Assembly (NCBI RefSeq): GCF_007004735.1
Contig: NZ_SSNL01000003.1
Location: 62,001 to 126,000, forward strand
Origin: Salinigranum halophilum
GTDB lineage: Archaea > Halobacteriota > Halobacteria > Halobacteriales > Haloferacaceae
Reading direction: 5' to 3'
DNA length: 64,000 nucleotides
The notes beneath the pieces were generated by a model. It was given only the letters and a program-made list of their open reading frames with translations. It was not told where the DNA came from and searched no databases. Made by a program: the position numbers and the translations under genes. Shown here in pieces: positions 44,654-46,762 of the stretch (the first letter of the stretch is position 1; the number at the start of each line of letters is the position of its first letter).

Positions 44654-45778
44654 ATGAGGGACGACCCCGACGAGGGGATGCTGTCGTGGGACGAGACGGT
44701 GTTCCGCGACGAACACGTCTTCGAGATCGACCACGTCCCGGAGACGTTCGACCACCGCGAGAGCCAGTTGGAGAGCCTGAAGTACGCGCTCCGGCCGGCG
44801 GTCAGAGGGTCGCGTCCGCTGAACACCATCGTCCGCGGGCCGCCCGGTACCGGGAAGACCACCGCCGTCCAGAAGCTGTTCGGCGAACTCCGCGGGCAGT
44901 CGAGCGTCCGCGCCGTCCACGTCAACTGCCAGATGAACTCGACGCGGTACGCCGTCTTCTCCCGCGTCTTCGAGGACCTCTTCGAGTACGAACCGCCGTC
45001 GTCGGGAATCTCGTTCAAGAAGCTCTTCTCGCAGATTTCCGACCGACTCGTCGAGGACGACGAGGTCCTGGTGGTGGCGCTCGACGACGTGAACTACCTC
45101 TTCTACGAGAACGAGGCTTCCGACGTGCTCTACTCGCTCCTCCGGGCACACGAGACGCACGCCGGGGCCCGAATCGGCGTCATCGTCGTCTCCTCGGACC
45201 TCTCGCTTGACGTCATCGACGAACTCGACGGGCGCGTCCAGTCGGTGTTCCGCCCCGAGGAGGTGTTTTTCCCCCGCTACGACCAGAGCGAGATCGTCGA
45301 CATTCTGGGCGAACGCGCGAAGCGTGGCTTCCACGAGGGCGTGCTGAACACGACGGGACTGGACCGGGTCGCGGAACTCACCGCCGAGAGCGGCGACCTC
45401 CGGGTGGGAATCGACCTCCTCCGGCGGGCCGGTCTCCACGCCGAGATGCGTGCCTCGCGGACCATCGAACCCGAGGACGTCGAGGCTGCTTACGACAAGT
45501 CGAAACACGTCCACCTCTCGCGGTCGCTTCGAGGGCTGTCGGACTCGGAGCGCGCGCTCGTCCGCGTCATCGCCGACCACTCCGGCGAGCAGGCCGGTGC
45601 GGTCTACGAGGCGTTCCACGAGGAGACCGACTTGGGCTACACGAGATACTCCGAAATCGTCAACAAGCTCGACCAGCTCGGCCTTATCGACGCCGAGTAC
45701 GCCGAGGTCGACGGCCGCGGTCGGTCGCGGTCGCTCACGCTCACGTACGACGCCGACGCGGTGAGAGAGCGGCTGTGA
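44654..45778 (+). CDS. Orc1/Cdc6-type replication initiator
   Basis: AAA+ origin-recognition protein of 374 residues. Walker A GPPGTGKTTAVQ at about 62-73, Walker B reads VVALDDVNYLF (Asp-Asp rather than Asp-Glu), sensor 1 VIVVSSDLSLDVIDEL, arginine-finger region GRVQSVFRPEEVFFPR, and a C-terminal winged helix (SDSERALVRVIADHSGEQAG, YSEIVNKLDQLGLI). Haloarchaea carry several paralogues; only some define active origins. No origin-type repeats were found nearby. Confidence 0.93.
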   Translation: MRDDPDEGMLSWDETVFRDEHVFEIDHVPETFDHRESQLESLKYALRPAVRGSRPLNTIVRGPPGTGKTTAVQKLFGELRGQSSVRAVHVNCQMNSTRYAVFSRVFEDLFEYEPPSSGISFKKLFSQISDRLVEDDEVLVVALDDVNYLFYENEASDVLYSLLRAHETHAGARIGVIVVSSDLSLDVIDELDGRVQSVFRPEEVFFPRYDQSEIVDILGERAKRGFHEGVLNTTGLDRVAELTAESGDLRVGIDLLRRAGLHAEMRASRTIEPEDVEAAYDKSKHVHLSRSLRGLSDSERALVRVIADHSGEQAGAVYEAFHEETDLGYTRYSEIVNKLDQLGLIDAEYAEVDGRGRSRSLTLTYDADAVRERL

Positions 45779-46066
45779 ACGACGGTCGGAGCGCCCGCGA
45801 CGACCGCCCCTACGGTCTCGCGGGGGCGTGACGCTCGCGGCTCCGTCCGCGAGCACACGCGAGGGACGAGGAGCACAGTGACCGAGCGAAGCGAGGGCAC
45901 GAGCACCGCAGTCGGTTGGGGAGGCTCGTGGCTTCAGCGCCCTGGCGGCCGCCTCCCTCCTCCGTCTCCGATGTGCTCGCCGACGACATCTCGACCCTCT
46001 CCACGACGACACATCGACCCTCTCCACGACGACACACCGACTGTCTCTTCCGACACTCCCGCGCTC
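45779..46066. repeat. GC-rich repeat block with tandem 23-bp duplication
   Basis: A 288-bp non-coding stretch. Its middle carries CGAGCGAAGCGAGGGCACG, then GTCGGTTGGGGAGGC, a phrase I recall in many haloarchaeal intergenic regions and spurious ORFs. At 45991-46036 a 23-bp unit is duplicated exactly, with a degraded third copy up to about 46058. No plausible gene crosses it. Confidence 0.6.
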
Positions 46067-46762
46067 TCAGAACTCCTCGACGTGCGGCCGGAGGTCCAGC
46101 TCCAGCGTCCACGCGCTCCGGTCCTGCTCGACGAGGTGCCAGTACGAGTCGGCGACGGCGTCGGGGTCGAGATACTCCGCCGGCCGTTCGACCTCCTGCC
46201 CCGGCGGCAGGATGCCGCCGTCGATGACGACGTGGGCGACGTGTACCCCCTGCGGCCCGAACTCCCGCGCCATCGACTCCGCCAGCCCCCGCACGGCGAA
46301 CTTCGCGCTGGAGAACGCGGCCGCGCCACCCCGCCCCCGGACGGAGGAGGTGGCCCCGGTGAAGACGATGGTCCCGCCCGTTCCCCCCTCGCCGAGCATG
46401 TCGTCGAGCGCCTCCTGTGCGCACTGCAACCCCGCGCGGGCACCGACCTGCCAGGCGTGTTCGAACTCGTCGAGCGACACCTCCCGAACGCCCTTCCACG
46501 ACCCGCCGCTGGCGTGGTTGACGAGGACGTCGACAGGCCCCAGTTCGGTCCGGACCGTCTCGAACGCCGATTCGACCTCGTCGGGGGCGGTGAGGTCCGT
46601 CGGGACGGCGACCACCCCGTCGCCGAAGTCGTCGGCGAGTCCCTCGACGTACGAGGCGGTTCGCGCCAGGAGCGCGACCCGACACCCCTCTTCGACGAAC
46701 CGTCGGGCGAGCGACTCTCCGAGACCGGGACCGACGCCGGCGATGACGACCGTGTGTGTCAT
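46067..46762 (-). CDS. short-chain dehydrogenase/reductase (SDR) family protein
   Basis: NAD(P)-binding oxidoreductase of 231 residues. Cofactor motif VVIAGVGPGLGESLARRFVE near the N-terminus, NNAG-equivalent VLVNHASGGSW, and the active-site stretch ATSSVRGRGGAAAFSSAKFA, where the usual Tyr of YxxxK is Phe (FSSAK). The catalytic Tyr is thus missing, so it may be a binding protein or a divergent enzyme. The start at 46762 is the first Met that gives the dinucleotide fold. Confidence 0.88.
   Translation of the reverse strand: MTHTVVIAGVGPGLGESLARRFVEEGCRVALLARTASYVEGLADDFGDGVVAVPTDLTAPDEVESAFETVRTELGPVDVLVNHASGGSWKGVREVSLDEFEHAWQVGARAGLQCAQEALDDMLGEGGTGGTIVFTGATSSVRGRGGAAAFSSAKFAVRGLAESMAREFGPQGVHVAHVVIDGGILPPGQEVERPAEYLDPDAVADSYWHLVEQDRSAWTLELDLRPHVEEF

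Follow-up and report, generated by a model that had tools for sequence, protein, structure and literature searches.

Several described systems resemble the sequence reported here in part. In bacteria, BOX and ERIC are modular intergenic repeats with RNA-like structure, and inverted pairs of REPs are termed REPINs. Two-tetrad quadruplex aptamers have a GG-TT-GG pattern similar to one that recurs below. Parts of PMC3733652 describe the REPs themselves as being bound, in single-stranded DNA form, by RAYT transposases. Haloarchaea have palindromic repeats of their own: according to passages of PMC3119063, the PATEs and SMRs of Haloquadratum walsbyi are repeated and transposase-free. On the scale of a single hairpin, sections of PMC4686876 report that mini-hairpins with GNA loops are extraordinarily stable as DNA.

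The window analysed is a stretch of 64,000 nucleotides from Salinigranum halophilum (contig NZ_SSNL01000003.1, positions 62,001 to 126,000), and coordinates below count from its first letter. The gap at 45779-46066 (288 bp) is bounded by two stop codons, those of an orc1/cdc6 gene and of a convergent SDR gene. Gene calling by codon usage, performed with our own script (which called some starts too long), left the gap empty, in agreement with the initial annotation that it is noncoding. That annotation had also picked out the motifs CGAGCGAAGCGAG and GTTGGGGAGGC, and both are present where it had placed them. We found that 45826-45964 is one copy of a dispersed, unnamed haloarchaeal noncoding element. 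The features of the locus are:

Ends at 45778: orc1/cdc6 gene, replication initiator (family NF001626, ORC1-type).
45826-45860, plus strand: P1 hairpin, outer GCGTG/CACGC (45826-45830 with 45856-45860) and inner CTCGCGG/CCGCGAG (45834-45840 with 45847-45853), from predicted folds on both strands.
45861-45864, plus strand: conserved linker GAGG, invariant in the 30-copy alignment.
45865-45913, plus strand: GA-ladder hairpin GAC-ga-GG-a-GC-aca-GTG-a-CC-ga-GC-[gaa]-GC-ga-GG-g-CAC-ga-GC-a-CC-gca-GTC, read by hand from the ladder folds of relatives and from covariation.
45883-45895, plus strand: CGAGCGAAGCGAG, the ladder tip (GCGAAGC at 45886-45892), read from the sequence; GNA triloops are common at tips.
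45914-45931, plus strand: GG-TT-GGGG-A-GG-CTCGT-GG, a possible two-tetrad G-quadruplex judged from GG spacing.
45932-45964, plus strand: 3′ part (CTTCAGCGCCCTGGCGGCCGCCTCCC...), covered by BLASTN matches to query position 186; a similar terminus, CACCGCCCTGGCG, occurs in other copies.
45981-46041, plus strand: 23-bp tandem array of 2.7 copies (TRF, period 23), outside the element.
46067-46762, minus strand: SDR gene, short-chain dehydrogenase, convergent to the orc1/cdc6 gene.

In aligned copies the order from 5′ to 3′, on the strand that reads GGGGAGG, is P1, GAGG linker, ladder, core and a variable 3′ part. The ladder is built from rungs of 2 bp, with tandem G.A mismatches between them. Its segment recurs at lengths of 30, 38, 46 and 54 nt, among other lengths, and in many other copies its outer part reads GA-NN-A-NN-GCA on each side. 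The window copy's own energy-only fold differs from the ladder read by hand. The mini-hairpin that had been suspected at GCGAAGC fits this anatomy, as the tip of a longer GA-ladder hairpin. The tips of 151 single-hairpin ladders comprise 116 triloops, of which at least 90 are GNA, as well as 14 tetraloops, with 2 GNRA among the 25 loop types listed in this tally.

Some copies carry additional segments. Extra hairpins between GAGG and GAYGA in L128, L125, L096 and L105 resemble expansion segments. In Halobacteriales archaeon QS_1_68_20, stretches of alternating AT-rich sequence (TATATGAATATATG-like) lie directly 5′ of P1 in L072, L078, L087, L095 and L117. In the same genome, the core of L077, L078, L086, L155, L160, L174, L176 and L177 is followed by a different segment (CATCCCTAGG...TCGCTAG...) and then by inverted core-like sequence; the segment is perhaps another repeat within the element.

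Base pairing in the ladder was compared with shuffled controls. Of 320 possible rung pairs in the ladder, 302 form, compared with a mean of 218.6 for shuffled partners (maximum 240 in 2000), a count that upholds the conserved hairpins proposed at the outset. All four rungs form in 71 of 80 copies, where shuffles average 14.6; this test left out 15 of 95 copies in which no 5′ half could be recognised, and some of the 9 imperfect copies had two candidate 5′ halves. In the 30-copy alignment, 98.0% of cells are paired, compared with 76.9% when shuffled and 15.9-39.1% when slid, and two column pairs show all four Watson-Crick types (CG, UA, GC, AU). One of five covariation measures fails: this alignment has 5 pairs with changes on both sides, against 4.7 in shuffles.

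The ladder fold is mainly on one strand. In samples of 45, its energy z was -2.21 for the sense strand and -0.14 for the complement in Salinigranum, and -1.12 and -0.60 in others; P1 folds on both strands (z about -3). Folding of the whole window copy was unremarkable (z -0.13 sense, -1.59 complement), and a plain energy test would therefore have missed the element. The ladder, whose length varies, was also missed by RNAalifold run on 18 copies aligned with MAFFT.

The core is GGYTGGGGAGG. A further GG follows 1-7 nt 3′ of it in 241 of 249 copies (227 at 4-5 nt), compared with a background of 0.28. Together, GG-YT-GGGG-A-GG and the further GG provide four GG tracts, a possible two-tetrad G-quadruplex judged by their spacing. 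The invariance of the core is partly built in, because most copies were gathered by searching for the exact core motif. A search anchored solely on the 5′ part yielded 177 exact cores plus 27 fuzzy ones, among which 13 are credible variants.

BLASTN with the 288 bp hit 11 places in the same genome, self included, and gave matches in 17 of 40 relatives. The multicopy character and the related haloarchaeal sequences named in the initial annotation are both evident in these counts; a single-copy sequence without matches elsewhere, the outcome it had named as adverse, is not what we found. Exact matches to the 13-mer TCGGYTGGGGAGG number 58 in congener G003 and 44 in congener G002, compared with 1 and 0 for the reversed pattern. 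The largest contig holds 58 of 58 in G003 (4.25 of 5.0 Mb) and 43 of 44 in G002 (4.0 of 4.9 Mb). Within the window, two single motifs (mismatches allowed) were no commoner than in shuffles.

A covariance model (R1), built from 30 copies, matches 109 of 145 genomes of the haloarchaeal class, some of which contain training copies, and 50 of 59 genera, with up to at least 36 copies per genome. A draw of 146 genomes across the phylum (E 1e-5) gave 8 with a match, every one from the same order; 118 of the genomes without a match were counted irrespective of order and may include members of that order too. Scanning named genomes gave at least 120 stretches. Twenty-six were set aside because their record titles are not haloarchaeal, and those of them that were read have no ladder. 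The 94 remaining include Halorussus, Haladaptatus, Halosimplex, Haloarcula, Halococcus, Haloarchaeobius, Halorientalis, Halobaculum and Haloterrigena. Some plasmids carry matches as well: those of Halobaculum salinum, Halobaculum halophilum and Halorussus salilacus have matches over the core region at 73-74% identity (H1, H2, H9). Rfam 15 gave three matches in window positions 45500-46300, all far under gathering scores, and no match at E 0.5 in 10 further loci. No description of the element was found among the papers listed by the literature searches. We are highly confident that the family exists with the structure described.

A viral origin was considered and rejected. All 17 IMG/VR stretches with the core 17-mer are without a ladder in the sequence read, and BLAST gave one weak phage match. 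On contig C1 of G019, 20 of the 36 copies listed are within the first 1.2 Mb; the plus strand carries 17 of the 20. This skew is possibly tied to replication direction; it is not clear in G003.

Both G003 and G002 carry a counterpart of the window copy at the same place among the genes. By eye, P1 of the G003 ortholog is GTCGCGG/CCGCGAC, compared with CTCGCGG/CCGCGAG in the window, which is a compensatory change, and P1 compensation was seen in the same way in at least 4 of 11 orthologous sets. The second ladder rung, GC/GC in the window copy, appears by eye as AC/GT in G002, and G003 has lost the first rung. Rearrangement or decay is evident in other copies, such as L280 and the G003 remnant of the L044 locus. 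Among 22 locus entries of the window's own genome (some pairs entered twice), there are 6 whose two flanks both lie next to a copy in G003, and a further 2 for which one flank does. So few shared loci are as expected if copies come and go, and argue against host function.

In Haloarcula, seven genomes have 1-4 covariance-model copies each, and the radB-phoU gap holds one copy in all seven. Across the six distinct genomes compared (L382 was dropped as identical to L378), element windows in this gap are 0.95-0.99 identical, compared with 0.72 and 0.54 for windows directly beside it and 0.82-0.96 for coding sequence. We read this alignment as purifying selection on the copy as a noncoding unit. 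Conservation in the gap is not unique to the element, because a second noncoding block at +70 is equally conserved (0.96). This block (ACCGCGCGAGCGGAGCGAGCGC), about 70-105 nt after the core in L377-L384, resembles a small GA-ladder hairpin. A second conserved Haloarcula copy is flanked by two genes of the cobalamin pathway and is antisense to each; by eye it has no TATA-like box. With compensatory substitutions and with conservation above its flanks, the family has the marks of a structured element under selection. We consider a host-level function at some copies probable.

We propose that the folded strand, hairpin plus G-quadruplex, would be a recognition platform for a DNA-acting protein. 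The protein would act while the DNA is transiently single-stranded, during replication, repair or supercoil-driven extrusion, and the element would thereby mark or punctuate the chromosome. The molar intracellular K+ of haloarchaea would favour such a fold. The same structure may once have allowed copies to spread in the manner of REPs and REPINs, which would account for the inverted pairs in Salinigranum. That this is an old haloarchaeal noncoding chromosomal element working as a folded single strand by such a mechanism seems to us an even proposition. The most far-reaching version, which we consider unlikely, is a selected, strand-specific ssDNA device, with an aptamer-like G.A-ladder/GNA-tip hairpin plus G-quadruplex, that would mark many intergenic sites for a replication or maintenance protein.

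The weakest step is that the active form is DNA rather than RNA, a view to which we incline at roughly even odds. On the side of DNA are the tips, which are GNA triloops (at least 90 of 151 single-hairpin ladders) and not GNRA tetraloops, together with the absence of orientation bias and of a conserved promoter, and the conserved Haloarcula copy that is antisense within the cobalamin gene pair. Against DNA, one pair of P1 is G.U or G.T in 31 of 82 copies (A-T/A-U never, A.C once), and the pair that closes the ladder is U.G in 9 of 75 Salinigranum copies and in 41 of 85 other copies, a set selected by a pattern that fixes one side. Both look RNA-like. The ladder is also unsupported by DNA energy parameters, which gave one end-closed hairpin in 20 of 183 ladders, compared with 151 of 183 with RNA parameters (Vienna).

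The same wobble pairs and RNA-parameter folds favour a structured RNA, in which the GA strand would be RNA, either a small noncoding RNA family or an element of transcript processing or stability. The conserved radB-phoU copy, which starts about 30 nt past the radB stop in the sense direction, and the optional inserted hairpins, which are like RNA-domain expansion, point the same way. The gene context and the GNA tips do not. Our own gene caller placed 210 of 213 copies between genes. In a set of 96 copies none is inside a called gene, the four orientations number 25/21/20/18 and 12 copies have no called neighbour; among 117 Salinigranum copies the orientations are 24/33/26/31 and 3 are inside called genes. 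Neither set has an orientation bias relative to neighbouring genes, and among the 84 copies whose two neighbours were both called, 39 lack an upstream gene in the sense direction. The 65 of 96 copies with P1 located share no conserved TATA-like box 5′ of it. We hold the RNA reading as a tentative one, with a likelihood that overlaps those of the other readings.

Several narrower roles were also considered. An independent promoter was rejected with the same 65 copies; AT content 5′ of P1 climbs from about 0.33 to 0.45. The orientation counts give no support to a terminator or UTR role, and the fixed orientation to neighbouring genes that is expected of a cis-regulatory UTR RNA was not observed. 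The 30 neighbour proteins scanned, of 40 picked round 24 random copies, have no common theme (6 without a Pfam match), and no protein partner of the element was found.

Another reading is that the element is selfish, a non-autonomous mobile element like MITEs, REPINs or PATEs with no host role, and that its structure is kept for mobility alone. In Salinigranum some copies are paired head to head, and 35 of 114 intergenic cores have an inverted partner upstream; pairs about 180-200 bp apart were observed. Some copies thus form the inverted doublets of a REPIN; the window copy is unpaired. The paired unit is about 280 bp, with 13 full-length matches in Salinigranum, 11 of them aligned. By eye, GACCGCRCGRYACACGGGCGCGGTG and CACCGCGCCCGTGTACCGCGCGGTC form inverted repeats at the ends of about 6 of these 11, a MITE feature not seen in the window copy; the rest differ at the right end. 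Inverted pairs occur in Halorussus and QS_1_68_20 too. One pair locus differs between species, with a remnant in G003 and nothing recognisable in G001 and G002, and most copies in the window's own genome are not common to G003. Such pairs, some with terminal inverted repeats, suggest that the element can spread.

Against this, the copies look old by sequence: none are near-identical, and the best non-orthologous match among 228 copies is about 91% over 156 bp. At two loci examined for an empty site the noncoding DNA was not alignable, and no precise empty site or target duplication was read; at the pair locus a duplication is not readable because the gap does not align. Association with a RAYT/Y1 transposase was not supported: Y1 was not found in five nearly complete element-bearing genomes (G001, G009, G012, G016, G019), and the core motif was in 0 of 30 Y1 loci. 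No transposase was present among the 30 neighbouring proteins scanned, 6 of them without a Pfam match, and no parent transposon was found. Purifying selection at the fixed Haloarcula locus also argues for more than mobility. We consider the purely selfish reading rather unlikely.

A second structured domain, starting with GGACTGAAAGGG or similar, lies up to 140 nt 3′ of the core in 29 of 175 copies, a set that retains duplicates from overlapping loci. Of these 29 copies, 23 also show GGGCTTTC further along the stretch read. Five loci on haloarchaeal plasmids (L370-L374) have this domain without the first in view, and the window copy is without it. The second domain (GGACTGAAAGGGGC ... GGGGGCTTTC) carries a similar ladder, for example in L035, L072, L085, L105 and plasmid L370-L374.

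The 23-bp array requires separate treatment. The initial annotation had reported an exact tandem duplication and a decayed third copy, and this is correct: 45991-46013 equals 46014-46036, the third copy is degenerate, and TRF counts 2.7 copies. It had also placed the array in one block with the motifs, which does not stand. The tandem block is outside the repeat family because the BLASTN matches listed, self excepted, stop by query position 186, with the sole exception of G026 (query 212-272). Tandem arrays are not enriched beside the element either, with 12 in 98 element gaps (33.2 kb, window locus included) compared with 4 in 47 control gaps of the same loci (9.1 kb). The orthologous gap beside the same orc1 gene in G003 has a different array, of 21 bp (L312, 1389-1447), and that of G002 has none by TRF (score ≥50). 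We regard the 23-bp tandem as an ordinary intergenic repeat.

That the tandem repeat and the motifs together are merely low-complexity GC-rich intergenic sequence is extremely improbable; tandem arrays like this one are frequent in such gaps and the description holds for the array only, whereas the 13-mer counts (58 and 44, against 1 and 0 when reversed) and the covariation contradict it for the rest. A protein-coding origin can be dismissed almost entirely, since long ORFs overlap the stretch mechanically but codon usage gives no gene, and 8-nt steps in ladder length and base-pair covariation are not coding signals.

The element is thus real and unnamed, a folded noncoding sequence of haloarchaea that shows evidence of selection, and we infer for it the mechanism proposed above. 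It covaries and is found in 109 of 145 haloarchaeal genomes, with no credible Rfam 15 match where searched and no description in the literature searched. With DNA as its active form, it would offer a rare example of selection acting over long times on a single folded strand of DNA; with RNA, it would be a new haloarchaeal RNA class. It may also explain some spurious haloarchaeal ORF calls.

Compared with known systems, the element is like REP, BIME and REPIN sequences in being a palindromic intergenic repeat with many copies and inverted pairs. However, its arm is about 130 bp, beyond the size of a REP, which is a palindrome of 20-40 bp tagged GTAG or CGTC, and it differs further in its G.A-mismatch ladder, its GG tracts, its lack of Y1 association and its spread across a whole archaeal class. 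It resembles MITEs in the terminal inverted repeats of some Salinigranum units, but no target duplication (two loci examined) or parent transposon was found, and the single arm is far wider spread than the paired unit. As neither the transposase link of REP/REPIN nor a MITE parent was found, it is not filed as a member of these families, though partly alike. BOX and ERIC share its modular intergenic build, and it is set apart from them, by description only, as archaeal. Like the PATEs and SMRs, as parts of PMC3119063 describe them, it is haloarchaeal, transposase-free, repeated and palindromic; PATEs are related there to IS605-type ends, and it is the distribution of the element (50 of 59 genera) that distinguishes it. 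Its tip is of the same sequence type as the d(GCGAAGC)-type GNA mini-hairpins treated in sections of PMC4686876. Those mini-hairpins and the quadruplex aptamers are short model or synthetic DNAs, whereas the element is a genomic family.
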